From a virus, in IMG/VR virus record IMGVR_UViG_3300022843_001042, positions 1 to 26,887 of that record: 26,887 bases of DNA. One strand, 5' to 3'. Of the stretch, positions 3,758-26,887 are shown piece after piece. Position 1 is the first letter of the stretch, and the number at the start of each line of letters is the position of its first letter. The notes below the pieces were generated by a model. It made no database searches and was not told the origin of the DNA. It worked only from the letters and a program-made list of their open reading frames with translations. The position numbers were made by a program, and so were the translations under genes.

Positions 3758-4858
3758 TTATATTTTTATTCTAGGTACTAAATCTGAGGGTCTTTGAACT
3801 GTTAGTTCAGTGCCTATAGCATTAATAAAGCTATTACCTTCATAATATTTAAAATTTCCTTTATTATCTGATATCATAAAACCATCAAACTGATGTTCTT
3901 CAAAGTAATCTTTAGCTAAATTCTTAGCTAAGTCTACAATAAACTTATCGGATTCGAATTCCTTCCCCGTAAAGTAAGAACTTATATCCATTGATAATTT
4001 ATTTTTATACCAGAAATTGATTTTATCTGATATTTTTTCGATTATTACCTTATTATCTATACCGAAGTTTAATGCCGATTGGTAAAGAGTATTAACCTTA
4101 AAAGGCCAAGTAGTACCCTTGGGAGTTATTAAATTTTTAATTTCTTCTTTTTGGTCTTTATCCAGATCTAAAGTATCAACTAATTTTATTAGGTTCTGTA
4201 TATACTCAGCTGATTTTCCTCTTACAACATATGAAGGTACTACTAATGCCCCCGAAGCTCCAGTTCTAGATTTTAATTCAACTTCTTTACCATCTATATT
4301 TAAATCCCCTTTATCCTTAGCTTTTGACACATTATTAAAAAATACGGATAAAAAGGCTTCACCTGGTCCTAAAGAAACGGTCCCTTGAATAGAATCCTTC
4401 ATATCACCATATAAAGATATTAATTCGGAGTTACTAAAACCCTGTATTTGATCAAAATAATTTGGGTTGGTTATGTCAAATTTAGGTGGGTTTTCTGCTA
4501 TTTTAGAAAATTCCCCAGTTTTACCCATATCTGATAAAAGTGATTGAAAAAATAATATATCTTTATTACTTAAATTTTTAGATGATAAGTGATCCTTCAT
4601 TGAATTACCAAACCCAACATTTTTGGTATACTTAGTAATCTGTTTTAATTCATTAGCGTTAGATATATTCTTTATAAAGCTAACTAGGTTTGCTCTTAAC
4701 TCTTCAATATCTTCTTCTACTTCTTCTTCTTTAATCTTATATTTATATCCTTCTACTATATCAAATAAGAATTTTTTATCTGAAGGATCGTTCATATCCG
4801 GGTAACCTTTAGGAAATCTCCAACTATTTTCTTTTAATATTTTATCAAATACATCCAT
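3758..4858 (-). CDS. Predicted PD-(D/E)XK-type nuclease with tag-like N-terminus
   Basis: This protein has 366 residues. A nuclease core can be placed at 163-200: GPGEAFLSVFF supplies the helix-1 glutamate (E167), then GDLNIDGKEVELKSRTG gives D185 and E194-x-K196, the D-x(n)-(E/D)-x-K signature of restriction-endonuclease-fold enzymes, with a basic/Gly segment (SRTGASGA) after it. The region before it (40-160) is helical and acidic. The C-terminal third has no motif I know. Residues 1-11 (MDVFDKILKE|N) end in L-x-E like the tags of the neighbours, so it may enter the capsid. It precedes 3133-3753 by four bases and follows 4860-5309 by one. An endonuclease that acts on host or rival DNA on infection, or one in genome processing, are both open. 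The fold call is by motif only. Confidence 0.6.
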   Translation of the reverse strand: MDVFDKILKENSWRFPKGYPDMNDPSDKKFLFDIVEGYKYKIKEEEVEEDIEELRANLVSFIKNISNANELKQITKYTKNVGFGNSMKDHLSSKNLSNKDILFFQSLLSDMGKTGEFSKIAENPPKFDITNPNYFDQIQGFSNSELISLYGDMKDSIQGTVSLGPGEAFLSVFFNNVSKAKDKGDLNIDGKEVELKSRTGASGALVVPSYVVRGKSAEYIQNLIKLVDTLDLDKDQKEEIKNLITPKGTTWPFKVNTLYQSALNFGIDNKVIIEKISDKINFWYKNKLSMDISSYFTGKEFESDKFIVDLAKNLAKDYFEEHQFDGFMISDNKGNFKYYEGNSFINAIGTELTVQRPSDLVPRIKI

Positions 4859-6703: not shown

Positions 6704-7153
6704 CTATCTGTTTCCTACCACGTATTCACGTGTGAAAAACGTAATAGTATTACCAATTTGATCCGTTAATTTATCATTTCCTAAAGCATTAGCGGTATCC
6801 AATGCTGTTTTTAAAGAATCCTGGATTAGCTCTTCTTCTGGTGTTAAACTAGTTTCATATTCCTTTCTTGGTGCATCTTCATCTTCAATTTCTATATCTT
6901 CATCCCTATCTGTGGCACTATCGTCCATGTCATCGTTAACATCTTCATCTTCATCCTCTTTTAGGGATAATTCTGCTAATATATCTTGTTTGATTTTTGC
7001 TTTTAATTCTGATACTTTCATTTTTGTAGATAATAGGTTACTTTCGTTACCCATTTTTCCTTCTACTTTTATTTTGGAATCTTGTTTTTTTAAGGTATTA
7101 AGGGTATGTAGTTTACCCTCTGCAAGATATTTACGTAGGTCAAAATTGTCCAT
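6704..7153 (-). CDS. Acidic prohead-core-like protein with capsid-targeting-like N-terminus
   Basis: This protein has 149 residues. Residues 1-12 ([13 protein letters not shown]) match the tag of the genes at 1876 and 2255. A helix follows ([20 protein letters not shown]), then an Asp/Glu tract (residues 66-95) and a conserved C-terminal block, [20 protein letters not shown] then [15 protein letters not shown], which I recall from many T4-like phages. Tag, acidic low-complexity middle and helical end resemble T4 head-core proteins such as gp67/gp68 in style, but I cannot show homology. It overlaps no neighbour; it ends eight bases before the start of 5331-6695. Confidence 0.75.
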
Positions 7154-7248
7154 TATTTGTGTTTTTAATTAGTTTTTGTTTAAAATGTTCAGTTATAAAT
7201 ATTAAAAATTTTTTAAAAATTACCTTTTTTACTAATATATTAGTTTTA
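7154..7248. other. A/T-only spacer after the LRR array
   Basis: Ninety-five bases separate the last LRR gene from the head-type genes, the longest gap in 7-16 kb. It holds a weak A/T inverted repeat (TTAAAAATTTTTTAAAAATTA, centred near 7210) that could end or slow transcription, and AATATTTATAA on the minus strand near 7190, resembling sequence found before the genes at 13859-14653 and 14686-15840. No gene and no clear -33/-7 promoter are seen. Confidence 0.35.
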
Positions 7249-7779
7249 TCATTTTATATAAATTTGACCTTTTACTCCAGGTACCATTTGTTTGATTTGT
7301 TCTTTACTATATTTTTTAGAGATGGGGGTATTATATAAATCAAGATCACCTCCTACTATTAAACCTTGGGGTAGGGAGGTTATTGGTGTATTTCTTAAAT
7401 TAAGATTACCTCCTACTGTTAAACCTTGAGGTAGGGAGGTTATTTTAGTCCCAAATAAATCAAGAAAATCTCCTACTGTTAAACCTTGAGGTAATGAGGT
7501 TATTTTGGTATTTCCTAAATAAAGAGAACCTCCAACAGTTAAACTTTGTGATAATGTGGTTATTTTAGTATCTTCTAAATCAAGATAACCTTCTACTCTT
7601 AAACCTTGAGGTAGGGAGGTTATTGGGGTACCTCCTAAATCAAGATCACCTTTACTACCATCCTTTATATACTGTTGGATTTTCTTTTGCGTAGCAATTA
7701 AAAAGTTCTTAGAGCGTTCTTCAGGGGAACGTCTGGTGGTTAATATTTTATTTTCTAGTAGGTCTATTAATTTTATCAT
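7249..7779 (-). CDS. LPx-type leucine-rich-repeat protein, paralogue 7 (5 repeats)
   Basis: This protein of 176 residues has the shared family layout. Residues 1-13 are MIKLIDLLENKIL, a tag with L-L-E|N. Residues 14-45 are a basic helical cap (RRSPEERSKNFLIATQKKIQ, then YIKDGSKG). Then follow five 20-residue repeats of the form LPQGLxVGGxLxLxxTxITS, and the tail KKYSKEQIKQMVPGVKGQIYIK. The repeats fit the bacterial LPx subclass of LRR (IpaH/YopM-like, 20-22 residues). One repeat reads LSQSL instead of LPQGL. Its ATG shares its A with the stop of the upstream paralogue (TAATG). It has one residue more at its end than the family formula of 75 + 20n. No catalytic domain is present, so binding is the likely task; the ligand is unknown. 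Confidence 0.85.
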   Translation of the reverse strand: MIKLIDLLENKILTTRRSPEERSKNFLIATQKKIQQYIKDGSKGDLDLGGTPITSLPQGLRVEGYLDLEDTKITTLSQSLTVGGSLYLGNTKITSLPQGLTVGDFLDLFGTKITSLPQGLTVGGNLNLRNTPITSLPQGLIVGGDLDLYNTPISKKYSKEQIKQMVPGVKGQIYIK

Positions 7780-8366
7780 TATGTATAAATTTCACCTTTC
7801 ACACCAGGCACCATTGTTTTAATTTGTTCTTTACTATATTTTTTAGAGATGGGGGTATTAGTTAAACCAAGAAATCTTCCTACTTTTAAATCTTGGGGTA
7901 GGGAGGTTATTGGGGTATCTCTTAAATAAAGATTACCTCCTACTGTTAAACCTTGTGGTAGGGAGGTAATAGGAGTATATGATAAATAAAGATCACTTCC
8001 TACCGTTAATCCTTGGGGTAGTGAGGTTATGGGGGTATTACTTAAATAAAGAGAACCTCCTACTTTTAAACCTTGAGGGAGGGTGGTTATTTTAGTACTA
8101 CCTAAATTAAGATCACCTCCTACTGTTAAGCCTTGAGGTAGGGAGGTTATTGGGGTACCAGATAAATCAAGATAACCTTCTACTCTTAAACCTTGAGGTA
8201 GGGAGGTTATTGGGGTACCAGATAAATCAAGATCACCTTTACTACCATCCTTTATATACTGTTGGATTTTCTTTTGAGTAGCAATTAAAAAGTTCTTAGA
8301 GCGTTCTTCTTTGGAACGTCTAGGGACTAGTATTTTGTTTTCTAAGAGATCTATTAGTTTTATCAT
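7779..8366 (-). CDS. LPx-type leucine-rich-repeat protein, paralogue 6 (6 repeats)
   Basis: This protein has 195 residues: tag MIKLIDLLE|N, helical cap (VPRRSKEERSKNFLIATQKK), six repeats and the tail KKYSKEQIKTMVPGVKGEIYT. Its cap differs from the others by SKEER in place of SPEER. Repeats 4 and 5 (SDLYLSYTPITS and NLYLRDTPITS) are nearly those of repeats 4 and 5 in paralogue 2 at 11078-11848, and 66 bases at 7965-8030 are identical there, so repeats have been exchanged between the two genes. The last repeat is irregular (KVGRFLGLTNTP). Start and stop are both shared as TAATG with neighbours, so the array is translated as one coupled chain here. Confidence 0.85.
   Translation of the reverse strand: MIKLIDLLENKILVPRRSKEERSKNFLIATQKKIQQYIKDGSKGDLDLSGTPITSLPQGLRVEGYLDLSGTPITSLPQGLTVGGDLNLGSTKITTLPQGLKVGGSLYLSNTPITSLPQGLTVGSDLYLSYTPITSLPQGLTVGGNLYLRDTPITSLPQDLKVGRFLGLTNTPISKKYSKEQIKTMVPGVKGEIYT
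7965..8030. repeat. 66-bp block identical to 11447-11512
   Basis: Every one of 66 bases matches the block at 11447-11512, about 3.5 kb away in another paralogue. Ordinary units of the array share framework but not the variable codons, so this is a sign of recent exchange or duplication. The match ends where the two differ (gggggta against tggggta). Confidence 0.85.
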
Positions 8367-8773
8367 TATATATAAATTTGACCTTTTACTCCAGGTACCA
8401 TTTGTTTGATTTGTTCTTCACTATATTTTTTGGAAAGTGGGGTATTAGATAAATTAAGATCACCACCAACTTTTAAATCTTGAGGTAGGGAGGTTATTTT
8501 GGTATTATATAAATCAAGAAAACCTCCTACTTTTAAACCTTGGGGGAGGGAGACTATTAGGGTATTAGATAAATCAAGATAACCTCCTACTTTTAAACCT
8601 TGAGGGAGGGAGGTTATTGGAGTATTTTCTAAGTTAAGATCACCTTTACTACCATCCTTTATATACTGTTGGATTTTCTTTTGAGTAGCAATTAAAAAAT
8701 TCTTAGAGCGTTCTTCAGGGGAGCGTCTGGTGGTTAATATTTTATTTTCTAGAAGGTCTATTAATTTTATCAT
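8366..8773 (-). CDS. LPx-type leucine-rich-repeat protein, paralogue 5 (3 repeats)
   Basis: At 135 residues this is the shortest member: tag MIKLIDLLE|N, helical cap with TTRRSPEERSKNFLIATQKK, only three repeats, and the tail KKYSEEQIKQMVPGVKGQIYI. An unusual residue V replaces T at the end of repeat 1 (NTLIVS). Three repeats plus the cap may be near the minimum for a stable solenoid, so it could be a contracted copy. It begins at the stop codon (TAATG) of the inserted WCTTY gene at 8773-9522. Confidence 0.85.
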   Translation of the reverse strand: MIKLIDLLENKILTTRRSPEERSKNFLIATQKKIQQYIKDGSKGDLNLENTPITSLPQGLKVGGYLDLSNTLIVSLPQGLKVGGFLDLYNTKITSLPQDLKVGGDLNLSNTPLSKKYSEEQIKQMVPGVKGQIYI

Positions 8774-9522
8774 TATGAAATTCCTATAATATAGGTATAT
8801 TCTTTTATATCACTCTTTGAAATTTGTTTATCTAACCCATCATACCCATCAATTTTTCCATTATCTAATACCGCCAAAGCAACAACTACTAAATTCTTCC
8901 AGGTTTTTGGAAATTTATCTTGAAGTTGTTTTAACATTTGCTCTGATTTTACTTTAATATAATAAAAAGTTACATTATTTGTATAGTAATAATCATTAAA
9001 GTGATCGGGGGCTTTATAAGTTGTACACCATGAGGAATCTTTTCCACCATCACTACAGTCTCTAAATGCAAATTGGGATAATCCAAGCTTACGGGATGCC
9101 TCATGGGTATGAGGAGTCATTATTAGTAGGTCTGCAGTGTCTACTACCGTATCGTAATCTGATTCTAGGTCTTTGGTAGATACATTTTCTCCTGAGTTAT
9201 TAATACCATCAACTTCATCTTGTAAATCTTTAAATAATTTGAATTGATATACATCTTTAGTTTTTGCTTTACCTTTTTCTAAAAATGTATTAAATTCTTC
9301 AATTGTGTTTCGTAGCTCATCTAAATCAGTAACTTGTTTATTAACCCATTGTTTTGCCATCCAACCTACATACTTTCGGGTTGGTGATGGGTCTATATCA
9401 ATTAAAGCTTTTAGTTCGTCTTGGGTTAATTTACCTGAGTCGATATACTGTTTTGCCTGTTTTACGTTTTCTAAAATTGAATGTTTGTTTTCAATTAGAA
9501 GTTTTGGATTGTTAAATTTCAT
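8773..9522 (-). CDS. Conserved phage protein with SSWCTTY motif, inserted in the LRR array
   Basis: This protein of 249 residues is unrelated to the LRR genes on either side. Its C-terminal half holds RDCSDGGKDSSWCTTYKA, a fully hydrophobic beta segment (YYYTNNVTFYYIKV) and WKNLVVVALAVLDNGKIDGY. The 'x-WCT-x' block occurs in many uncharacterised large-phage proteins that I recall only as a family, without known function. Residues 1-12 (MKFNNPKLLIE|N) again end in L-I-E. A vestigial LRR start (ATG GTA AAA CTA ATA TAA, 9532-9549) lies directly upstream, so the gene seems to have entered between an LRR start and its body, or been placed at an array junction. C175 or the neighbouring Ser/Asp could be catalytic, but no known triad can be drawn. 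Confidence 0.75.
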   Translation of the reverse strand: MKFNNPKLLIENKHSILENVKQAKQYIDSGKLTQDELKALIDIDPSPTRKYVGWMAKQWVNKQVTDLDELRNTIEEFNTFLEKGKAKTKDVYQFKLFKDLQDEVDGINNSGENVSTKDLESDYDTVVDTADLLIMTPHTHEASRKLGLSQFAFRDCSDGGKDSSWCTTYKAPDHFNDYYYTNNVTFYYIKVKSEQMLKQLQDKFPKTWKNLVVVALAVLDNGKIDGYDGLDKQISKSDIKEYTYIIGIS

Positions 9523-9531
9523 TTTGTTATT

Positions 9532-9549
9532 TTATATTAGTTTTACCAT
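9532..9549 (-). other. Vestigial LRR-gene start (MVKLI-stop)
   Basis: ATG GTA AAA CTA ATA TAA repeats the first five codons of the LRR genes (MIKLI) with one change. It follows an LRR 3' end (GSIYL-stop) at exactly the spacing seen before 10475, so it marks the former beginning of an LRR gene whose place is now taken by 8773-9522. Confidence 0.6.
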
Positions 9550-9556
9550 TATATGT

Positions 9557-10084
9557 TTATAAATATATACTACCTTTTACTCCAGGCACCATTTGTTTAA
9601 TTTGTTCTTCACTATATTTTTTGGAAAGTGGGGTATTAGATAAATCAAGAAAACTTCCTACTTTTAAATCTTTAGGTAGGGCGGTTATTTCAGTATCATA
9701 TGAATAAATACCACCTCCTACTGTTAAACCTTGAGGTAGGGTGGTTACTTTAGTACCATATAAATTAAGATTACCTCCTACTGTTAAACCTTGAGGGAGG
9801 GAGGTTATTAGGGTGTTTTGTAAATCAAGGTAACTACCTACTTTTAAACCTTGAGGGAGGGAGGTTAATTTAGTACCCATTAAATTAAGATCACCTCCTA
9901 CTGTTAAGCCTTGAGGTAGGGAGGTTATTGGGGTATTTCTTAAATCAAGATCACCTTTACTCCCATCCTTAATGTATTGTTGAATTTTCTTTTGAGTAGC
10001 AATTATATAATTCTTAGAGCGTTCTTCAGGAGAGCGTCTAGGGACTAGTATTTTATTTTCTAAGAGATCTATTAGTTTTATCAT
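9557..10084 (-). CDS. LPx-type leucine-rich-repeat protein, paralogue 4 (5 repeats)
   Basis: This protein of 175 residues has tag MIKLIDLLE|N, cap (VPRRSPEERSKNYIIATQKK), five repeats and the tail KKYSEEQIKQMVPGVKGSIYL. Repeat 4 is the most diverged of the array (GGGIYSYDTEITA), losing both leucines of the L-x-L strand; it may break or bend the solenoid. The last repeat starts LPKDL. The ATG overlaps the stop of the inserted gene 10081-10455 (ATGA). A spacer of 34 bases, holding the vestigial LRR start, separates its stop from the next gene. Confidence 0.85.
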   Translation of the reverse strand: MIKLIDLLENKILVPRRSPEERSKNYIIATQKKIQQYIKDGSKGDLDLRNTPITSLPQGLTVGGDLNLMGTKLTSLPQGLKVGSYLDLQNTLITSLPQGLTVGGNLNLYGTKVTTLPQGLTVGGGIYSYDTEITALPKDLKVGSFLDLSNTPLSKKYSEEQIKQMVPGVKGSIYL

Positions 10085-10455
10085 TTTACAATTTTAAAGT
10101 TTTTACCTTTATATTTTTCTTCTTTTGCTTTAGATAATGCTTCTTCTTCAGATCTTGCTTTTACCATAATATAGTCATCATCATAATTATCGTCTCTATA
10201 TACCCAGTATTGTACCTCATATTCTTTTTCCTCTGATTCGTTTAAATTATTAAAATTTAATTCAGTAAGAGAGGATGCAATAGAAAATCTTAATAGGGAT
10301 TTATCCCTAGGTGTTTGGAAGTAGTCTGGGAAGTCATTTGTTAGTTGATTATAAATAATGTTAACCTTCTGTTTGGCTTTTAAATCTTCATCGCTCATAT
10401 TACTCTCTAAAATACGATTAGTATTCCAAGAATGTACATCAAAATTATCTTTCAT
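10081..10455 (-). CDS. Small phage protein with tag-like N-terminus, inserted in the LRR array
   Basis: This protein of 124 residues is not related to the LRR family. The first 18 residues, MKDNFDVHSWNTNRILE|S, have the I-L-E site and resemble starts such as FD-x-x-x-W/L-x-x-N-R of other phage internal proteins. The C-terminal 45 residues (YEVQYWVYRDDNYDDDYIMV then KARSEEEALSKAKEEKYKGK) form a beta-beta-alpha unit of a kind common in phage small proteins: two strands, then a helix carrying the E-A-L-x-K-A-K pattern. The function is unknown. Its ATG overlaps the stop of the vestigial MIKLITL frame upstream, and its own stop overlaps the ATG of the next LRR gene. Confidence 0.75.
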   Translation of the reverse strand: MKDNFDVHSWNTNRILESNMSDEDLKAKQKVNIIYNQLTNDFPDYFQTPRDKSLLRFSIASSLTELNFNNLNESEEKEYEVQYWVYRDDNYDDDYIMVKARSEEEALSKAKEEKYKGKNFKIVK

Positions 10456-10475
10456 AGTGTTATTAGTTTTATCAT
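10452..10475 (-). other. Vestigial LRR-gene start (MIKLITL-stop)
   Basis: ATG ATA AAA CTA ATA ACA CTA TGA keeps the first five codons of the LRR tag and then runs into a stop that overlaps the ATG of 10081-10455 (ATGA). It lies directly after the LRR stop at 10483. As at 9532-9549, an LRR start was left behind when another gene took its place. Confidence 0.65.
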
Positions 10476-10482
10476 TATATGT

Positions 10483-11070
10483 TTATAAATATATACTACC
10501 TTTTACTCCAGGTACCATTTGTTTAATTTGTTCTTTAGTGGATTTTTTAGAAAGGGGTGTATTTCTTAAATTAAGATCACCTCCTACTGTTAAGCCTTGA
10601 GGTAGGGAGGTTATTTTAGTATTATATAAATAAAGATCACCTCCTACTGTTAATCCTTGAGGTAGGGAGGTTATTTCACTATTATTTAAATAAATATAAC
10701 CTCCTACTTTTAAACCTTGAGGTAGGGAGGTGATAGGGGTATTACTTAAATAAAGATTATCTCCTACTGTTAAGCCTTGAGGTAGGGAGGTTATTTTGCT
10801 CCCATATAAATTAAGAGTACCTCCTACTTTTAAACCTTGAGGTAGGGTGGTTATTAGGGTATTATTTAAGCTAAGATTACCTCCTACTGTTAAACCTTGA
10901 GGTAGGGAGGTTATTGGTGTACCTGCTAAATTAAGACCACCTTTACTTCCATCCTTTATATACTGTTGAATCTTCTTTTGAGTAGCAATTAAAAAGTTCT
11001 TAGAACGTTCCTCAGGGGAGCGTCTAGGGATTAATATTTTGTTTTCTAGTAAATCTATTAATTTTATCAT
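10483..11070 (-). CDS. LPx-type leucine-rich-repeat protein, paralogue 3 (6 repeats)
   Basis: This protein of 195 residues starts at the MIKLIDLLE tag at 11070; a longer reading from 11097 would add nine residues from another gene's 3' end and is unlikely. The cap contains IPRRSPEERSKNFLIATQKK. Six repeats follow, ending KKSTKEQIKQMVPGVKGSIYL, where KKST replaces the usual KKYS; the same variant tail is in paralogue 1, so tails have also been exchanged. Repeat 4 has an isoleucine at the first strand leucine (GGYIYLNNSEITS). It is eight bases from the stop of paralogue 2, and the gap again repeats ATGATAAA, a duplicated start. Confidence 0.85.
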   Translation of the reverse strand: MIKLIDLLENKILIPRRSPEERSKNFLIATQKKIQQYIKDGSKGGLNLAGTPITSLPQGLTVGGNLSLNNTLITTLPQGLKVGGTLNLYGSKITSLPQGLTVGDNLYLSNTPITSLPQGLKVGGYIYLNNSEITSLPQGLTVGGDLYLYNTKITSLPQGLTVGGDLNLRNTPLSKKSTKEQIKQMVPGVKGSIYL

Positions 11071-11077
11071 TTTATCA

Positions 11078-11848
11078 TTATAAATATAATATTTCACCTT
11101 TTACTCCAGGCACCATTTGTTTAATTTGTTCTTCACTATATTTTTTAGAGATGGGTGTTTTCTCTAAATCAAGATTACCTCCTACTATTAAATCTTGGGG
11201 TAGGGAGGTTATTTTAGTATTATATAAATTAAGATTACCTCCTACTTTTAAACCTTGAGGGAGGGAGGTTATTTTAGTACCCATTAAATTAAGATCACCT
11301 CCTACTGTTAAGCCTTGAGGTAGGGAGGTTATTTTAGTATTATATAAATAAAGATTACCTCCTACTTTTAAATCTTGAGGTAGGGAGGTTATTGGGGTAT
11401 CTCTTAAATAAAGACTACCTCCTACTGTTAAATCTTGAGGTAATAAGGTAATAGGAGTATATGATAAATAAAGATCACTTCCTACCGTTAATCCTTGGGG
11501 TAGTGAGGTTATTGGGGTACTAGTTAAATAAATATAACCTCCTACTTTTAAACCTTGAGGTAGGGAAGTTATTGAAGTATCTCTTAAATCAAGATAACCT
11601 CCTACTGTTAAGCCCGGAGGTAAAAAGGTTATTTTAGTATTACCTAAATCAAGAGAACCTCCTACTGTTAAACCTTGAGGTAGGGAGGTTATTGGGGTAC
11701 CAGATAAATCAAGAGTACCTTTACTTCCATCCTTCATGTATTGTTGGATTTTCTTTTGAGTAGCAATTACATAATTCTTAGAGCGTTCTTCGGGAGAACG
11801 TCTAGGGACTAGGATTTTATTTTCTAAGAGATCTATTAATTTTATCAT
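11078..11848 (-). CDS. LPx-type leucine-rich-repeat protein, paralogue 2 (9 repeats)
   Basis: At 256 residues this is the longest member: tag MIKLIDLLE|N, cap VPRRSPEERSKNYVIATQKK with QQYMKDGSKG, nine repeats, tail KKYSEEQIKQMVPGVKGEILYL. One repeat reads LPPGL, and another ends LLPQDL after ITP. The inserted residue in GEILYL explains why it is one residue longer than 75 + 20n. It shares 66 identical bases (11447-11512) with paralogue 6. Its 5' half resembles paralogue 1 in the cap; its central repeats resemble paralogue 6, which makes it look like a mosaic. Start is TAATG with the upstream stop. Confidence 0.85.
   Translation of the reverse strand: MIKLIDLLENKILVPRRSPEERSKNYVIATQKKIQQYMKDGSKGTLDLSGTPITSLPQGLTVGGSLDLGNTKITFLPPGLTVGGYLDLRDTSITSLPQGLKVGGYIYLTSTPITSLPQGLTVGSDLYLSYTPITLLPQDLTVGGSLYLRDTPITSLPQDLKVGGNLYLYNTKITSLPQGLTVGGDLNLMGTKITSLPQGLKVGGNLNLYNTKITSLPQDLIVGGNLDLEKTPISKKYSEEQIKQMVPGVKGEILYL
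11447..11512. repeat. 66-bp block identical to 7965-8030
   Basis: Partner of the block at 7965-8030, in direct orientation. Homologous recombination between the two would delete or duplicate everything from paralogue 2 to paralogue 6, including the two inserted genes. Confidence 0.85.
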
Positions 11849-12555
11849 TATGTATAAATTTCACCTTTTACTCCAGGTACCATTTGTTTAATTTGTTCTT
11901 TAGTGGATTTTTTAGAAAGGGGTGTATTTCTTAAATCAAGATCACCTCCTACTGTTAAATCTTGGGGTAATGAGGTTATTTTGCTCCCATATAAATCAAG
12001 ATCACCTCCTACTGTTAAACCTTGTGGTAGAGAGGTTATTGGAGTATTCCTTAAATCAAGATCACCTACTACTTTTAAACCTTGGGGTAATGAGGTTATT
12101 TTGGTATTACTTAAATAAAGATAACCTCCTACTTTTAAATCCTGAGGTAGGGAAGTTATTTTAGTACTATTTAAATCAAGATAACCTCCTACTGTTAAGC
12201 CTTGGGGTAGGGTAGTTATTAATGTACCCCCTAAATAAAGATCACCCCCTACTTTTAAATTATTAGGTAGGGAGATTATTTTAGTCCTAAATAAATCAAG
12301 AGAACCTCCTACTGTTAAACCTTGGGGTAATGAGGTTATTGGGGTACTATTTAAATTAAGATCACCTCCTACTTTTAAACCTTGAGGTAATGAGGTTATT
12401 GGGGTATTTTTTAAATTAAGACCACCTTTACTTCCATCCTTCATGTATTGTTGAATCTTTTTTTGAGTAGCGATTACATAATTCTTAGAGCGTTCTTCAG
12501 GGGAGCGTCTAGGGACTAAAATTTTATTTTCTAATAGATCTATTAGTTTTATCAT
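11848..12555 (-). CDS. LPx-type leucine-rich-repeat protein, paralogue 1 (8 repeats)
   Basis: This protein of 235 residues is the first of the array in transcription order: tag MIKLIDLLE|N, cap VPRRSPEERSKNYVIATQKK, eight repeats, tail KKSTKEQIKQMVPGVKGEIYT. Repeat 3 begins LPNNL and repeat 6 has KVVGD for KVGGD. The gene starts one base from the stop of 12557-13129, with no room for a promoter, so the array is read from upstream. No signal peptide or membrane segment is present in any member, so these are cytoplasmic or virion-internal proteins. Confidence 0.85.
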   Translation of the reverse strand: MIKLIDLLENKILVPRRSPEERSKNYVIATQKKIQQYMKDGSKGGLNLKNTPITSLPQGLKVGGDLNLNSTPITSLPQGLTVGGSLDLFRTKIISLPNNLKVGGDLYLGGTLITTLPQGLTVGGYLDLNSTKITSLPQDLKVGGYLYLSNTKITSLPQGLKVVGDLDLRNTPITSLPQGLTVGGDLDLYGSKITSLPQDLTVGGDLDLRNTPLSKKSTKEQIKQMVPGVKGEIYT

Positions 12556-13858: not shown

Positions 13859-14653
13859 TTATTTTTTAATATTAGTATATCTAAAACCCTTATAAAATAT
13901 AGATTTATTTATGATTTTTCTAAGTTTTGTAGTTCCTAAAACACCACTACCTTCAAAACTCATAAATGAGGGGTAAATATTGATTAATTCTTCGTTTATA
14001 TTATATTGATATATAGCTTTAGTTTTGATTTTTCTTATTTTATCTTTATACTCTTGTGAGCGTTTCTCCCCCTCTCTAGAGTTATGAGTTTTTATTCTTC
14101 TCTCAACCGTCCATTCTAGTCCTCTTTTTTTTGTAATATAACAAGGGATTTTTTGTTTTATTGTTCCTTTTTTATATAACCATTGATATCCATAGGTTGA
14201 TTTATATTTACCTCTAGCACAATCATTAATATTATTTGATGTTCCTTTATTAAATTGTTTAATGGCATCACTTGCCCCCTTATATTCCTTAATAAAATCT
14301 CCATTTAAAGAATATTGTAATATTGATTTCATAGAGTTAACTCTTCTTAATTCTTCACTTTCTTTACTTAATTCTCCACCATCACCCCCTAAAGTTAAGT
14401 TTAAACCATTAATAGCACTCTTTAAGGTCAGAATATGATGTATTTCTTTTTTATTTAATTCCTCAAACCTACATTCTTCGATTATACTAAATTCATGTTT
14501 TTCAGGTCCATATTTTTTTAAACTATTATATAATTTTCTTTGTTGATGACAATGTTGCATTTTATTATAAGAACTAAATCTACCCTCAATATTTTTACTT
14601 TTTCCTATATAAATTTTACCTTTTGGGTTTGTAATTTTATAAATTCCTACCAT
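13859..14653 (-). CDS. GIY-YIG homing endonuclease with two NUMOD1-like modules
   Basis: This protein of 264 residues opens with MVGIYKITNPKGKIYIGKSK (GIY at 3-5, YIG at 15-17), then the conserved R25 and the catalytic-helix region EFSIIEECRFEELNKKEIHH. Two NUMOD1-type DNA-binding units follow: ILQYSLNGDFIKEYKGASDA with YGYQWLYK, and AIYQYNINEELINIYPSFMS with YKGFRYT. It lies one base before the HAD gene and about 30 bases after 14686-15840, and splits what would otherwise be one operon. No intron ends or disrupted host gene are visible here, so it seems to be a free-standing insertion. A run of A/T sequence with AATATTTATAATAAA upstream may give it its own promoter. Confidence 0.9.
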   Translation of the reverse strand: MVGIYKITNPKGKIYIGKSKNIEGRFSSYNKMQHCHQQRKLYNSLKKYGPEKHEFSIIEECRFEELNKKEIHHILTLKSAINGLNLTLGGDGGELSKESEELRRVNSMKSILQYSLNGDFIKEYKGASDAIKQFNKGTSNNINDCARGKYKSTYGYQWLYKKGTIKQKIPCYITKKRGLEWTVERRIKTHNSREGEKRSQEYKDKIRKIKTKAIYQYNINEELINIYPSFMSFEGSGVLGTTKLRKIINKSIFYKGFRYTNIKK

Positions 14654-17665: not shown

Positions 17666-17690
17666 TTTTTTCGCATATATTTTTAGGATA
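17658..17690. repeat. Inverted repeat over gene end and promoter
   Basis: TATCCTAA (17658-17665) and TTAGGATA (17683-17690), perfect 8-bp arms, 17-base A/T-rich loop. One arm is the end of the kinase gene (its stop codon), the other overlaps the -33 element of the next promoter. It may be an operator, or a terminator stem with an unusually long loop. Confidence 0.4.
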
Positions 17691-18480
17691 AAAATTGTTT
17701 TATTTTAGATTGTGCTTCTTCTTTAGACATTGAATTGGATATAAAGTTATTAACTACATTATCACTTAATAAATCTTGTATTTCAGCACTCATTTCTACC
17801 TTCTGTTGATCAGATCTTTTTTGTTGTGAGGGTGTTTTTTCTTTAGTACCTGTTGGATTAAATGGGGTAAGGTATTTGCTTATAATGTCATTAATATCTT
17901 TTAGTTTATTGTTATCTAACGTATTAGACACCATAACATAGTTGTCTCCAAATAATTCTTTATAAGGAAGATAATTTTTAGTTACATCTAACCAGGTACG
18001 CATTACTATAGCAGGGGCTAGACTTCTATCTTCACCTCCTGATTTTTCGAATCTATCTTGATTTTGTTGTAATGATCTTTCTAGATCTGTATAGACATAG
18101 AGCATCATAACATTATACCCCGTTTCTTCTAATTCTAATTTTAATATGTTGGTTTGTTTATAAGAGGCAGCTGTTCCATCTAATATAAAAGATTGTTTAC
18201 CTTCAATTGTAGATGCAATATCTCCTTTAAAATCTTTATTAGCCGCCGCCATAGATATAGCTTGTTGGCTTCTTTCTTCAGGTGTTGCATTTTTTAAATC
18301 TAGGGATATATTTGCCTTTTTAAGTAAGTCAATGTATCTATTATCTAAGTTTAGTATTTTTAATCCACCTAGATCTAAACCTTTTAAAATAGAACCCTTA
18401 CCTGCACCCGGTGCTCCAGCTAATATAATAGCTTTGGGGTTACCCTGTACTTCTTTTAATAATTGTACTAAACTTACCAT
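17683..18480 (-). CDS. P-loop kinase (zeta-toxin/polynucleotide-kinase-like)
   Basis: This protein of 265 residues has a Walker A motif at 21-30 (AGAPGAGKGS) and a hydrophobic strand before it (KAIILAG). Then come a DNRY segment (LNLDNRYIDLLKKAN) that may be a substrate-binding loop, and LDGTAASYKQ, the adenylate-kinase/zeta-toxin-style second strand with Asp. MMLYVYTDLERSLQQNQDRF provides the likely lid with arginine. The C-terminus (230-265) is a charged helical tail. The type is close to zeta toxins and phage polynucleotide kinases, but I see no motif fixing the substrate. The first 10 residues (MVSLVQLLKE|V) again hold L-K-E. It lies 29 bases after 18510-18767. Confidence 0.7.
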   Translation of the reverse strand: MVSLVQLLKEVQGNPKAIILAGAPGAGKGSILKGLDLGGLKILNLDNRYIDLLKKANISLDLKNATPEERSQQAISMAAANKDFKGDIASTIEGKQSFILDGTAASYKQTNILKLELEETGYNVMMLYVYTDLERSLQQNQDRFEKSGGEDRSLAPAIVMRTWLDVTKNYLPYKELFGDNYVMVSNTLDNNKLKDINDIISKYLTPFNPTGTKEKTPSQQKRSDQQKVEMSAEIQDLLSDNVVNNFISNSMSKEEAQSKIKQFLS

Positions 18481-18772: not shown

Positions 18773-18955
18773 TTATTTTTTAATTCCGAATAAAAACATA
18801 CACCCTCCAAAAAACATAGTAAATGCAAACCCCATTTCTGTGGTGGAGTTCGAAAATGGGATGTAACTTTGAATTTCTCCTATTATGGTAAGAAAACTTA
18901 AACCAAAGGAACATACTACACATAGCAGCATTTTAAAATCTATTTTATTTATCAT
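18773..18955 (-). CDS. Small membrane protein, two transmembrane segments
   Basis: This protein of 60 residues has two hydrophobic segments: MLLCVVCSFGLSFLTIIG (about 9-26) and MGFAFTMFFGGCMFLFGI (about 40-57), joined by a polar loop (QSYIPFSNSTTE). The basic N-terminus MINKIDFK and C-terminal KK suggest both ends are cytoplasmic. A reading from 19009 would add 18 residues from the promoter repeat; the same 18 residues appear before 19152-19364, which shows that they come from the shared leader DNA. ATG at 18955 is 26 bases from the -7 box, as in the other two copies. It may act on the host envelope or on superinfection; no homologue is recalled. Confidence 0.65.
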   Translation of the reverse strand: MINKIDFKMLLCVVCSFGLSFLTIIGEIQSYIPFSNSTTEMGFAFTMFFGGCMFLFGIKK

Positions 18956-19071
18956 AACCTTTATTTTTTTATTATGTGTAAATATACGAAGGCTGCCTGC
19001 GGCAGCCAAATTTTTATACCATCATGGTTTAAGTAGGTAAATTTATTTACGCTTATTTAATTTATATAGTT
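18953..19071 (-). repeat. Promoter repeat, copy A (119 bp)
   Basis: Copy A matches copy B at 19362-19480 along the whole length with few differences, and its first 55 bases match copy C at 20036-20090. It spans the start codon of one gene, the promoter and the 3' end of the gene before it. This is the footprint of tandem duplications of gene plus promoter, after which the coding parts diverged or were replaced. Confidence 0.85.
18981..19010 (-). promoter_or_regulatory. Promoter with dyad in the spacer, copy A
   Basis: TTTG at 19010-19007, N20, TATATTTAC from 18986. The spacer is almost filled by the dyad GGCTGCC-GCA-GGCAGCC (18991-19007), 7 bp with a 3-base loop. It lacks a T tract, so it is not a normal terminator, and its place suggests a repressor operator between the -33 and -7 elements. 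It drives 18773-18955, whose ATG is 26 bases from the -7 box. Confidence 0.65.
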
Positions 19072-19151: not shown

Positions 19152-19364
19152 TTAGTTAAATTGTAACATCTTATAAATGGACCATATCTTCAAAGTATTA
19201 ATTCTTCTTTTATCATCATCTGTATAAATGTCTGAGCTCATTAAGGTAGTATAAGCTTGTAGGCCCACTGACATCCACCCCTTTTGATTTAAATATCTTT
19301 TCTCTCTATCAACTTCAAATTTAATTGATTTACCATTGAACTTAAATTTAACTATTTGTCCCAT
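19152..19364 (-). CDS. Hypothetical protein of 70 residues
   Basis: The protein begins MGQIVKFKFNGKSIKFEVDR, a beta-hairpin of basic character, followed by helices (MSVGLQAYTTLMSSDIYTDD, KRRINTLKIWSIYKMLQF). I do not recognise it. ATG at 19364 is chosen over an upstream ATG at 19418 because the extra 18 residues are translations of the shared promoter repeat. Distance from the -7 box is 26 bases, like its two sister promoters. Probably an early host-takeover protein, by context only. Confidence 0.6.
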   Translation of the reverse strand: MGQIVKFKFNGKSIKFEVDREKRYLNQKGWMSVGLQAYTTLMSSDIYTDDDKRRINTLKIWSIYKMLQFN

Positions 19365-19480
19365 AACTTTTATTTTTTTATTATGTGTAAATATACGAAG
19401 GCTGCCTGCGGTAGCCAAATTTTTATACCATCATGGTTTAAGTAGGCAACTTTATTTACGCTTATTTAATTTATTTAGTT
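19362..19480 (-). repeat. Promoter repeat, copy B (119 bp)
   Basis: Colinear with 18953-19071 and of the same length. It carries a relic of the 31-residue peptide's 3' end (about 19452-19480), though here the gene in front is 19484-20038. One base of the hairpin differs from copies A and C. Confidence 0.85.
19390..19419 (-). promoter_or_regulatory. Promoter with dyad in the spacer, copy B
   Basis: TTTG at 19419-19416, N20, TATATTTAC from 19395. One arm of the dyad has a substitution (GGTAGCC for GGCAGCC), leaving a mismatch in the 7-bp stem. If a regulator binds the dyad, this copy should bind less well than A and C. It drives 19152-19364. Confidence 0.6.
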
Positions 19481-19483
19481 TAA

Positions 19484-20038
19484 TTATTTTAACGAGCTTC
19501 TATACCTGTAATGTAAACACTGAATATCACCTCCGCATAAGGTTCCGTAGGTAACAAATTGCTTACCATCAACAAACGCACTTACCTCAGCACCATCACT
19601 ACCTTTTCTAATTACAATATTAGTTGCAACCATATCATTGGTTAAGTGTTTTGCCAAGGCACGCTGTAGCTTAAACATATTAGATGCTATAAAGCTCTCC
19701 ATATATTTTTCCTCCCAATTAAGACGTAACTGGCTCTCTAAGGTAGAGACGTAGAATGTTAAATTACCATTGTTTCTAATTGCACTATATGCATCCTTTT
19801 CGGTATAGGTAATAGGTAAGTCGTAACTGCTACCACCCCACCTCTTATGTTCGGTCATATAAACAAACTTCTTTATACCGTCATAATGACATACCTCACC
19901 GTATCTTATTACTTCCCCATTTTCCTTAATCCATTCCTGGTATTTAACAAAACAAGCTTTCATATCATTGACTTGCTTGGTAGCTAAATCTGTAACAATC
20001 ACTTTAGCCTCTTCTGAAATTCTATTTAATGCGTTCAT
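19484..20038 (-). CDS. Hypothetical protein of 184 residues
   Basis: I do not recognise this protein. It has an N-terminal helix (MNALNRISEEAKVIVTDLAT), a mixed middle with KKFVYMTEHKRWGGSSYDLP, a helical part (MESFIASNMFKLQRALAKHL), and a beta-rich end (VATNIVIRKGSDGAEVSAFV, DGKQFVTYGTLCGGDIQC). The alternation of helix and strand with no catalytic motif suggests a single domain. It is not tagged at the N-terminus. ATG at 20038 is 26 bases from the promoter copy C. Context suggests an early protein. Confidence 0.65.
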   Translation of the reverse strand: MNALNRISEEAKVIVTDLATKQVNDMKACFVKYQEWIKENGEVIRYGEVCHYDGIKKFVYMTEHKRWGGSSYDLPITYTEKDAYSAIRNNGNLTFYVSTLESQLRLNWEEKYMESFIASNMFKLQRALAKHLTNDMVATNIVIRKGSDGAEVSAFVDGKQFVTYGTLCGGDIQCLHYRYRSSLK

Positions 20039-20090
20039 AACCTTTATTTTTTTATTATGTGTAAATATACGAAGGCTGCCTGCGGCAGCC
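20036..20090 (-). repeat. Promoter repeat, copy C (55 bp, partial)
   Basis: The first 55 bases match copies A and B; identity ends exactly at the outer edge of the dyad GGCAGCC (20084-20090). The breakpoint at the dyad suggests that the hairpin was an end of the duplication or recombination. Confidence 0.8.
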
Positions 20091-20093
20091 TAC
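20064..20093 (-). promoter_or_regulatory. Promoter with dyad in the spacer, copy C
   Basis: TATATTTAC from 20069, perfect dyad GGCTGCC-GCA-GGCAGCC (20074-20090), but GTAG in place of TTTG at the -33 position because the repeat ends there. Either another base run serves as -33, or this copy is weak or uses a phage factor that needs only the dyad and -7 box. It would drive 19484-20038. Confidence 0.5.
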
Positions 20094-20118
20094 TTTGTAC
20101 GTATAAATCTTTTATTAA

Positions 20119-21902: not shown

Positions 21903-22376
21903 TCAAAAAGTATGATATATACCAATAAAATCACTAGTAAACATACGACCCGCTATGTTATCATTCCAATATGAATTTGGTGTCTCTAAGACCTCTAGTT
22001 TAAAAAGATATTTTGTTTCCAAATAGGTTAGGTGTTTTTTATTAAAAGCAAACTCAAGTATTTCTTTTGTGAAATTGTGTTTACCTTCTTCTTTTATAAA
22101 TTTAATAAGTATTTTATTAGACCCACAGTAGGTTTTCCAATCTGATTCCTCAATTACTAGTTTTTTAGAAGGTAGTTTTCCTCTTGTTTTTAGAGATTTT
22201 CTTTCTTCTTTTAATATTTCTAGTTCTTTCTTACCCAACCTTTTATTGCGTTGAGTAAAAAAGTTTTTTCTACCAATATATATTTTGCCTGTAGGTGTGT
22301 GAGTTATCTTGTATACAAACCCAAAATCTCCATCATTAAGGGTAGTAAATTCTTTGTTTTTGTATATCCAATTCAT
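21903..22376 (-). CDS. GIY-YIG homing endonuclease, Seg-like
   Basis: This protein of 157 residues carries FVYKITHTPTGKIYIGRKNF (GIY-type FVY and YIG), followed by a lysine-rich linker (TRGKLPSKKL) and ESDWKTYCGSNKILIKF, a block found in phage Seg-type enzymes. LTYLETKYLFKLEVLE provides the catalytic glutamate region and NDNIAGRMF the usual end. It has no NUMOD module, unlike the other two GIY-YIG genes here, so it belongs to a different lineage. It sits next to the primase gene, a common target for such elements because conserved replication genes make good homing sites. Confidence 0.85.
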   Translation of the reverse strand: MNWIYKNKEFTTLNDGDFGFVYKITHTPTGKIYIGRKNFFTQRNKRLGKKELEILKEERKSLKTRGKLPSKKLVIEESDWKTYCGSNKILIKFIKEEGKHNFTKEILEFAFNKKHLTYLETKYLFKLEVLETPNSYWNDNIAGRMFTSDFIGIYHTF

Positions 22377-24763: not shown

Positions 24764-25021
24764 TTATCTTCTACCTGGCCCAAAAAATACAGGTTCTTCT
24801 TCAAATTCTCCGGGTCCTGGTCCTGGTTCTGTAATTACAGGCTCATGCTCGTACCCTCTAAATCCTAATAAAGTATTTTCTGTTTGAAAGTCAGAACTAA
24901 ATCCTTCGGGATTAGCGTCAACAAAAGCTCCCATTAAAGTTCTTTCTGATGTGTCAGGTCCTCCGTATACTTCTGTACATACATCAGAAAACTTAATTGT
25001 GTCATTTGTTGTTACTGGCAT
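24764..25021 (-). CDS. Small protein with IKFSDVCTEVYG motif and Pro/Gly tail
   Basis: This protein of 85 residues has a compact N-terminal part (NDTIKFSDVCTEVYGGPDTS, then TLMGAFVDANPEGFSSDF and LLGFRGYEH). I recall this I-x-FSDV-x-x-E-x-Y ... LxxFRxY pattern in many short flavobacterial-phage proteins next to fibre genes. The tail (EPGPGPGEFEEEPVFFGPGR) is proline-, glycine- and glutamate-rich and probably extended. Its ATG shares one base with the stop of the fibre gene, so it is made together with the fibre and may be its tip, cap or adhesin. The role is inferred from position. Confidence 0.65.
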   Translation of the reverse strand: MPVTTNDTIKFSDVCTEVYGGPDTSERTLMGAFVDANPEGFSSDFQTENTLLGFRGYEHEPVITEPGPGPGEFEEEPVFFGPGRR

Positions 25022-26887
25022 TAGATTCCTAGTTTATTCATTATTAATTCTAGCTTTGCTTTCAACATTTCATTTTCTGACTTTAGGTAAGCTATTTCTG
25101 CCGAGTGTAAATCCCCGTAAGAAACTGATTTCATTCCTTTACTATCTGTTCTGACAAACTCAGGATGATTTACTTCAAGTTCTTGAGCAATTACTCCAGT
25201 CCTTGTTTGTTTGGTATCATCATCTGTAAAGTTAAATGTTTTATAGTTAGAATTTATTTTAGTAGTTACAAACGTTTTAATGTTTTCTTTTAATCTGATG
25301 TCAGAAGAACCTATAAAGTCAGTTGCTGTTACTGTACCTTCAACAGTTAAACTATCGGTAAATAAAGGTAAGTTTCCTACGCTTTGTAAAGCCCATCTGT
25401 AACTCCCTCCTCTTAAAACTTTTATAACGTCACCCCATCCACTAATTGCATTTTGTTCAAAAACAGCATTTGAAACTTTTATATCATTAGTTGTAGTATT
25501 ACCTCTGTTTGTAACAGTTTGCAAAGTTTCTGATGTAAATGATGAATTACCTGAATGCCAAACCTGATAAGGTGTACCCCAAGTAGTTGAATTAAAGTCT
25601 TGTTGTAGTATGTGCAGTTGAGGAATCCCACCACCCTTACTAAAAGCTAATGCACTAGATAATTTAACATCCGATCCCGTATATGAACTCATATATAAAA
25701 CATCATTCCAACTTGAACCTCCTACAATTCCTAAGTTAGCAGAACTAAGCATTGCTAGTTTTAGTTTTCCAGCTCCGAATATAGTGTTGTTGGGTTTTTC
25801 TGTACCACCACTTACGTAATAACCCCCTAAAAAATTAGTTGCATCGTTGTAATTTCTGTGGTTATAGAAAAAGCCGTTTGAACCACCTAATAACAAAGAA
25901 TTTGAAGCTGTGGTTGCGGTAGTTCCGGTTGTTCCTTGAGTACCCGTTGAACCAGTTGATCCTGTGGAACCCGTAGTTCCTTGAGTACCAGTTGATCCTG
26001 TGGTTCCTGTTGTTCCTTGAGTACCTGTTAAACCAGTTGATCCTGTGGTTCCTGTTGTTCCTTGAGTACCTGTTGCTCCTGTATTTCCTGTTGTACCTTT
26101 AATTCCTTGTACACCAATAGCTCCTGTTGTTCCTTGAGTACCTGTTGCTCCTGTGGAACCCGTAGTTCCTTGAGTACCAGTTAAACCAGTTGATCCTGTG
26201 GTTCCTGTAGTTCCTTGGGTACCTGTAGTTCCTTGAATACCTGTTGCACCGGTTGAACCCGTAGTTCCTTGAATACCTGTTGCACCGGTTGAACCCGTAG
26301 TTCCTTGAATACCTGTTGCTCCTATGGTTCCAGTTGTTCCTTGAGTACCATTTGCTCCTGTTGCACCAGTTGAACCCGTTGTACCTTGAGTCCCAATGGC
26401 TCCAGTTGTACCTTGAGTACCAGTTGATCCTGTTGCTCCTGTATTTCCTGTTGTACCTTTAATTCCTTGTACACCAATAGCTCCTGTTGTTCCTTGAGTA
26501 CCAGTTGCTCCTGTTGTTCCGGTTGTTCCTTGAGTTCCAGTTGTTCCTGTTGCTCCTGTAGTTCCGGTTGCTCCTTGAGTACCTGTTGCTCCTGTTGCAC
26601 CGGTTGAACCCGTTGTTCCTTGCACACCAATAGTTCCGGTTGCTCCTTGAGTACCTGTTGCACCTGCTATACCTTGAGTACCAGTTGCTCCGGTTGAACC
26701 CGTTGTTCCTTGAGTACCTGTTGTTCCCGTTGTACCTTGTACTCCTATAGTTCCAGTAGTACCTTGAGTACCTGTTGCTCCTTGAGTTCCAGTTGTTCCT
26801 TGAGTTCCAGTTGTTCCTTGAATACCTGTTGTACCGGTTGAACCAGTTGTTCCTTGAGTACCTGTTGTTCCTGTTGTACCCTGAGTA
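25021..26887 (-). CDS. Collagen-like tail fibre with C-terminal S74 chaperone (N-terminus outside window)
   Basis: The frame is open to the window edge, so at least 621 residues are present and the true start is beyond 26887; GTG at 26625 is an internal codon. The first ~320 residues are collagen-like G-x-x repeats dominated by GTTG, GATG and GTQG triplets, which form a triple helix. A mixed beta region follows ([34 protein letters not shown]). The last ~115 residues are an S74-type intramolecular chaperone: [12 protein letters not shown], where the Ser before D and the following Lys make the self-cleavage dyad, then [34 protein letters not shown] and a coiled coil. The chaperone folds the trimer and is cleaved off. 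It is a receptor-binding fibre or appendage of the virion. Confidence 0.9.
25910..26887 (-). repeat. Collagen-coding G-x-x DNA repeat
   Basis: Nearly 1 kb of 9-base-based repeats (a short reading of tacctgttg, ccagttg and similar) encoding glycine triplets. It offers many sites for slippage and recombination, so its length may vary between virus populations and may be mis-assembled. All three frames are open over long stretches, which makes false genes appear (for example around 26322-26663 in another frame). Confidence 0.85.

Follow-up and report, generated by a model that had tools for sequence, protein, structure and literature searches.

In the viral record IMGVR_UViG_3300022843_001042, whose 26,887 bases make up the window analysed here and are a fragment of a larger phage genome, seven paralogous genes for leucine-rich repeat (LRR) proteins lie on the minus strand between 7249 and 12555. 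We call them A (7249-7779, 176 aa), B (7779-8366, 195 aa), C (8366-8773, 135 aa), D (9557-10084, 175 aa), E (10483-11070, 195 aa), F (11078-11848, 256 aa) and G (11848-12555, 235 aa). All share one layout, a ten-residue tag (MIKLIDLLEN), a helical cap (residues 11-44), a series of repeats, a half repeat and a fixed tail. Segmentation gives 5, 6, 3, 5, 6, 9 and 8 full repeats in A to G order, each series with its half repeat, that is 42 full repeats of 20 residues. The seven open reading frames (ORFs) are intact; the start of E was set at the ATG at 11070, where the tag begins, instead of the listed GTG at 11097. A preliminary description had presented this locus as seven tandem LRR paralogues of the LPx class, with 42 repeats, in a compact phage genome. 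The counts, the layout and the fold have been borne out, with the amendment that two unrelated genes (8773-9522 and 10081-10455) sit among the paralogues. The compact genome has not, as the window is only a fragment and related contigs reach 66-139 kb.

The repeat has the consensus xLxLxxTxITSLPQGLxVGG and is always exactly 20 residues long. An AlphaFold2 model of G, built from a 32-row alignment, has a predicted local distance difference test score (pLDDT) of 93.7, with 94-99 in the repeats and a mean of 56 over the first ten residues, and contains two short strands per 20 residues that recur throughout. When this model was compared with the PDB using Foldseek, the top row was a chain from a flagellar motor entry, and the best rows include the LPX-type LRRs of SspH1, IpaH1.4, IpaH2.5 and Leptospira LRR proteins (E mostly 1e-6 to 1e-4, TM-score up to ~0.65). 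In Pfam, F scores above the LRR_4 cut-off (31.4 vs 27) and G slightly below it (25.2), G barely reaches DUF5649 (25 vs 25), and a search of the window alone for LRR_8 gave no match. On the evidence of the model and its structural matches, A-G adopt the LPX-class LRR fold with a 20-residue LPxxL repeat.

Variation among the repeats is concentrated at five of the 20 positions. Within the window, entropy is 0-0.5 bit at positions 2, 4, 7, 9, 10, 12-14, 16, 18 and 19, about 0.9-1.0 bit at 11, 15 and 20, 1.44 bits at 17 (T, K, R or I) and 1.7-3.2 bits at 1, 3, 5, 6 and 8. Among 195 distinct units from 12 contigs the last five reach 2.6, 2.4, 3.5, 2.3 and 1.6 bits, positions 14, 15 and 17 reach 1.1, 1.2 and 1.6 bits, and all remaining positions stay at or below 0.94. 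The residues found are mainly D, Y and N at positions 1 and 3, and S, R, Y, N and E at position 5. The ratio of nonsynonymous to synonymous differences (pN/pS), computed from pairs of units up to 10 nt apart and given with bootstrap 95% intervals, is 2.19 (1.75-2.83) for these five positions together, against 0.35 (0.29-0.42) for the remaining fifteen. A wider set of 374 further distinct units gives 2.62 (1.94-3.48) and, for the framework, 0.33 (0.27-0.40), and the window units alone give 1.81 (1.21-3.03) and 0.28 (0.19-0.44). There was little freedom in choosing the variable positions, because the preliminary description had already named them as those beside the L-x-L strand and after T, position 6 being our addition. 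Selection falls where it had placed the variable codons, and the even spread that would have spoken against its idea was not seen. For contrast, across the seven paralogues pN/pS is 0.13 in the cap, 0.44 in the tail and 0.015 in tag codons 1-10 (pS 0.52), the most constrained part of the gene. As judged from these comparisons, repeat positions 1, 3, 5, 6 and 8 are under diversifying selection while the framework is constrained. By LRR geometry and the strand assignments, rather than from a measured surface, the five positions would form one face of the protein.

The array also recombines. Contig G001 (66,131 bases) holds two blocks that are 99.6 and 99.8% identical to the window, and its LRR genes number eight. 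The additional one, X, lies between F and E; its first 335 nt equal E and its last 323 nt equal F, with zero mismatches. The G001 copies of these genes, its 5' and 3' parents, are near-identical to E and identical to F of the window. Gene X therefore has the appearance of the duplication product expected from an unequal E/F crossover. Its junction contains 12 k-mers at k = 21 and 43 at k = 51 without counterpart in the window or the parents, so an assembler would need reads carrying that junction; a chimeric read could still be their source. A gene of contig G002 opens with a series of units close to that of G, and its last units and tail resemble E. As these cases illustrate, arrays in related phages differ and recombine, and an identical array in an unrelated phage did not turn up in the scans made. 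An exact crossover product, and a gene number that differs between near-identical contigs, would also be produced by the neutral expansion of a recombinogenic repeat through slippage and crossover, without any function. Because of the pattern of selection, with seven intact ORFs, a tag at 0.015, a framework at ~0.3-0.4 and a face above 1, we give this explanation almost no credence. A diversity-generating retroelement, suggested by the NAT codons at position 3, was considered: RVT_1 was found in 0 of 14 records (E 0.1), these records being fragments in which the template repeat was not sought.

The tag occupies 7750-7779 in A, 8337-8366 in B, 8744-8773 in C, 10055-10084 in D, 11041-11070 in E, 11819-11848 in F and 12526-12555 in G, all on the minus strand. 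It had been taken as a mere element of layout. It is indeed present in all seven genes; what had been missed is that it is constrained, shared with other proteins and similar to a capsid-targeting sequence (CTS). In phage T4, ten residues of the internal protein (IP) IPIII suffice, residues 4 and 7 acting in targeting and 8 and 10 in processing (PMC9026906, in extract), and propeptides are 10-20 residues long (PMC5694885, in extract). T4 ipII and ipIII have MKTYQEFIAE in common; ipI differs. The T4 IPs are described as a highly diverse set of defence proteins in which the CTS alone is conserved (PMC3012670, in extract), and the CTS may give T4-like phages a way of loading varied proteins into their heads (PMC9026906, in extract). 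The putative propeptide MIKLIDLLE/N, with the slash marking the cut expected after LLE, appears to follow the grammar of these sequences: about ten N-terminal residues, hydrophobic at 4, 7 and 8, with Glu near 10, on differing bodies. We regard the tag as the strongest clue to function. The tag fits a capsid-targeting propeptide, and therefore the proteins would act inside the virion and then inside the host. Could they instead be surface or tail proteins that recognize host receptors, or superinfection-exclusion proteins? An LRR-like ORF in the tail module of a vibriophage has been proposed to serve host recognition (PMC10945359, in extract). However, the present array does not adjoin the tail-fibre gene in the window and the tag fits head proteins, which leaves such a role highly improbable.

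Tags of this kind are found on other proteins too. A hydrophobic-hydrophobic-x-Glu pattern occurs at the N-terminus of 67 of 432 non-redundant proteins, compared with 23.5 +- 4.7 internally (maximum 40 in 200 draws). With a score matrix built from 27 distinct LRR tags, at least 10 bits are reached at the N-terminus by 16 of the 931 non-redundant proteins in which no LRR was detected, and by 2 of 2971 internal-Met windows (Fisher 3.5e-8), one of these two matches possibly reflecting a mis-set start. One of the 16 is a capped LRR relative and was dropped; the remaining 15 of 930 form 11 groups by BLASTP of their bodies (Fisher with 11, 6.5e-6), and 13 of the 15 carry hydrophobic-x-Glu within residues 5-12. 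For example, in contig G036 an LRR gene opening MIKLLDILRE is directly followed by two genes opening MINLLDILQE and MIKLINILSE, with MIQLKDILNE 18 kb further. In the capped LRR proteins themselves, hydrophobic-x-Glu ends at residue 9 or 10 in 84 of 93; it stands elsewhere before the cap in 8 and is lacking in 1.

The tag can also be replaced. In G015, which belongs to a different lineage, a homologous LRR protein (7120-7779), a homologue of the WCT protein described below (7789-8565) and six other ORFs share another tag, MKSKDQxLLEEAY or a near variant, MK(S/N)KDxxLLE(E/Q)AY. G030 has six ORFs with a tag of the MKSKDQxLLEEAY type and five with MNKDQxLLEEAY. The bodies of the other tagged ORFs in G015 and G030 mostly look mutually unrelated by eye. 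The LRR body is thus retained while its label swaps to that of the phage, in line with the behaviour of the CTS in T4. Shared tags of their own on many small ORFs were noted in the lineages G015, G030 and G029 (L058-L061, L219-L222 and L208-L218), and in G029 (217 kb) tag variants occur together with gp21 and gp23.

Head genes of the T4 type accompany the array in related records. Peptidase_S77, the gp21 prohead protease, is present in 8/22 and 4/6 LRR/WCT-bearing records and Gp23 in 7/22 and 3/6, and six of the eight S77-bearing records hold tagged LRR genes. The N-terminus of gp23 has L(L/I)ES in 7 of 7 examined, and in all 9 gp21 proteins examined LxE falls within the first 21 residues. Where gp20 and the terminase are mentioned, they were named by eye from their resemblance to annotated genes of Flavobacterium phage immuto. 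LRR genes lie directly before the terminase in G012 and G022, and the interval from gp20 to gp21 contains a tagged LRR gene in G013. In the latter contig a conserved protein of the gp20-gp21 interval ends in an LRR domain that is 68-78% identical to other LRR proteins; its N-terminus is homologous to proteins in five other contigs and in immuto. This fusion bears on the possibility that A-G are unpackaged intracellular effectors, made during infection, that bind host factors and whose N-terminal helix attaches to some phage scaffold, but not to the prohead core. The LRR fold and the selection fit such effectors, as do the LRR relatives of temperate phage Edno5, G021 and G022, which lack the tag. 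We consider them improbable given the fusion, the resemblance of the tag to the Leu-x-Glu N-termini of gp21 and gp23 and its presence on other proteins in two lineages. The tag and the head linkage would also suit a head-core or internal structural filler, packaged for assembly or DNA packing, with variation due to drift and recombination; loss of IPIII in T4 slows head assembly (PMC9026906, in extract). Drift would not, however, spare the framework while favouring five surface positions, and where the binding face of an LRR is expected pN/pS is above 1 in both sets of units, so we judge a filler unlikely.

Sequence similarity suggests that the phage is T4-like, with the Far-T4 phages as near relatives. 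G005 encodes a gp23 that shares 68% identity with that of immuto (host Flavobacterium sp. LMO8), 51% with that of a Microcystis phage and 37% with that of Rhodothermus phage RM378, and by eye the gene order around the NMNAT-like, nucleotidase and primase genes of the window resembles that of immuto. A comparison of the LRR protein with phage records at 1e-5 gave four matches only, immuto not among them. Far-T4 phages have been tied in silico to marine Bacteroidetes (PMC7198788, in extract), and the host is probably Flavobacterium or another Bacteroidota.

One of the two genes that interrupt the array encodes a frequent companion of the LRR genes, a protein of 249 aa with a WC(T/S)T motif (WCT; 8773-9522, minus strand) whose N-terminus, MKFNNPKLLIEN, is itself tag-like. 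Of 75 LRR loci, 48 also have this motif protein, and LRR repeats occur in 59 of 80 WCT loci, many of the loci ending at contig edges; its pN/pS across six contigs is 0.17. WCT has a distant relative in EST35_0205 of phage PA5oct (tblastn 3e-3, and 1.7e-10 by profile within a local set, where the match is confined to the N-terminal part). The PA5oct record lists that protein as structural on the basis of electrospray ionization tandem mass spectrometry. The WCT model has a pLDDT of only 72; VIA-align returned nothing usable (best Z 3.6), the Pfam scan gave scattered weak rows only, with 0 of 31 members reaching PcfJ at 0.01, and the model gave weak PcfJ rows (E 0.16 and 0.44). Two fusions were noted in passing. 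At L030 6905-7840 a Pfam PcfJ domain (E 1.7e-11) is fused to an LRR series that comes after it, a likeness to PcfJ-like proteins. At G021 24415-27141 (L025 6589-9315) a 908-aa protein joins a WCIS-bearing region to ~18 LRR units; its nucleotidyltransferase-like start and the WCIS link to the WCT family were both seen by eye, and the 29-row WCT profile did not list it.

We propose, and think it rather probable, that A-G are proteins of the head interior that are ejected on infection and have a diversifying binding face. Fold, variability and selection, the constraint, sharing and replacement of the tag, gp21 and gp23 in relatives, and recombination are read from sequences or models; packaging, cleavage, ejection and the class of target are what we infer. 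The first 9-10 residues, MIKLIDLLE, would be a capsid-targeting propeptide that docks each protein on the prohead core. A gp21-type prohead protease would cut after Leu-x-Glu and leave cap and LRR inside the head, and the mature proteins would be ejected with the DNA upon infection. They may then bind host proteins via the concave face formed by positions 1, 3, 5, 6 and 8, most plausibly defence factors, by analogy with T4 IPI* and the GmrS/GmrD nuclease. Because targets vary, selection would diversify the face, and unequal crossover and recombination between paralogues would reshuffle the array, with tag, cap and framework remaining fixed. A scan of F and WCT against a defence library gave no row, which says little on counter-defence.

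A number of observations weigh against this proposal. Neither gp21 nor gp23 lies within the 27-kb window or on most of the other fragments, and 14 of the 22 LRR records have no S77 match. Two of the eight S77-bearing records, G021 and G022, hold untagged LRR proteins. LRR genes are far from head genes within the fragments G004, G005 and G035, and the repeat relative in temperate Edwardsiella phage Edno5 is untagged and near an integrase and RecT. The LRR proteins L022, L028, L108 and L167 have other N-termini, and the cap filter excludes 14 of 107 complete LRR ORFs, among them some whose N-termini differ. As a motif LxE is weak, so single tag calls may be wrong and its occurrence in gp21 and gp23 may partly be due to chance; some of the 15 proteins that share the tag are related to one another, and two, which form one group, are without Leu-x-Glu near residue 10. 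The pN/pS values pool non-independent unit pairs, the two unit sets are related and recombination may inflate the ratio. As for the companion, 7 of 75 LRR loci have more than 2 kb on both sides yet no WCT motif, 21 of 80 WCT loci are without LRRs (by a strict pattern that the capped protein of G036 escaped), and the Foldseek match between the WCT model and PA5oct (1.8e-3) has a TM-score of just 0.22.

A more specific form of the proposal is a virion-borne repertoire, in which seven or eight paralogous LRR binders would be injected together and engage several host defence proteins at once, the set being renewed by crossover and selection. WCT, a conserved companion whose own N-terminus is tag-like, would be the constant partner. 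We put this forward tentatively, as the less probable part of our proposal.

Several further genes of the window, all on the minus strand, have tag-like N-termini. These are an ORF at 6704-7153, for which similar N-termini were seen by eye beside the terminase of the cultured phage immuto, one at 3758-4858 (MDVFDKILKE/N), two picked by eye at 2255-2668 (MKELTAFRKYLAE/D) and 1876-2241 (MKELNTFRKYLVE/G), and an ATPase-like protein at 17683-18480 (MVSLVQLLKE/V). In immuto, genes with similar N-termini include the 5' nucleotidase (MKKVMGNLADLLLE/E). The second ORF within the array (10081-10455, minus strand, 124 aa) has a DUF4288 row below threshold (E 0.0065) and no PHROG match below 0.01.

Elsewhere in the window, a gene for a collagen-like tail fibre, with strong matches to tail fibres in PHROG, runs from 25021 to 26886 and extends beyond the window end. 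ORFs with GIY-YIG-like beginnings lie at 675-1340, which has a PHROG homing endonuclease match, and, by eye, at 13859-14653 and 21903-22376, and the ORF at 15879-16661 matches PHROG 12094 and has a weak PADLOC UzuA row. Three 65-nt leaders (18952-19016, 19361-19425 and 20035-20099), 95-100% identical, each precede a small minus-strand gene; on that strand a G+C-rich hairpin is followed by an AT-rich stretch and the start codon. Their 20-nt core is also found in G001 (three times) and G002 (once), and the three stretches may be a common promoter or leader. The same phages also have paralogues of a short protein (MKEYKV..NLEGQLHREDGPA), at G005 1-2036 (in tandem), G004 48463-49499 and G001 63356-63721, which are a possible further variable family.

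Among known systems, variable lymphocyte receptors of jawless vertebrates are built from LRR modules with a variable concave face, and a designed scaffold of this type is among the Foldseek rows of the G model. The phage paralogues differ in being germ-line genes altered by crossover, with no somatic assembly, and we claim no common origin. The LPX-class LRRs of bacteria (SspH1, the IpaH family and Leptospira LRR proteins) have the 20-residue LPX repeat and the fold in common with A-G. In the secreted LRR E3 ligases of the IpaH/SspH type a novel E3 ligase domain follows the LRR, whereas the phage genes have a capsid-type tag; a Pfam scan at E 0.1 found no such domain in F (256 aa) or G (235 aa), both of which are entirely tag, cap, repeats and tail. 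A bacterial origin was also considered and rejected, as 88 stretches with the pattern in genome contigs (from an alignment scan) include no tblastn relative. LRRs from double-stranded DNA viruses were reportedly surveyed in 2021 (Matsushima et al., cited in PMC10945359). Phage LRR genes are not new, as the vibriophage example shows (PMC10945359); in extract, that report describes no capsid tag, paralogue array or selection. A close parallel is with IPI, IPII and IPIII of T4, likewise of a phage family with an S77 protease; the T4 bodies are diverse, and IPI is an injected protein that acts against restriction (PMC3012670, in extract). The array differs in its LRR bodies, in its seven recombining paralogues, compared with three ip genes in the T4 record, and in a pN/pS above 1 on one face, its packaging being the inferred part. 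In the open-access literature searched, no paper combines capsid targeting with leucine-rich proteins, and among the matches listed for internal or capsid proteins of T4-like phages a leucine-rich repeat is not mentioned.

If the proposal is true, the cargo packaged in a phage head would be a binding scaffold that is modular and selectable and that a single genome encodes as a family. The named tag, expected cut site, variable positions and partner make injected anti-defence repertoires directly testable. Finally, the tag suggests a sequence rule for spotting candidate packaged proteins in Far-T4-like phages.

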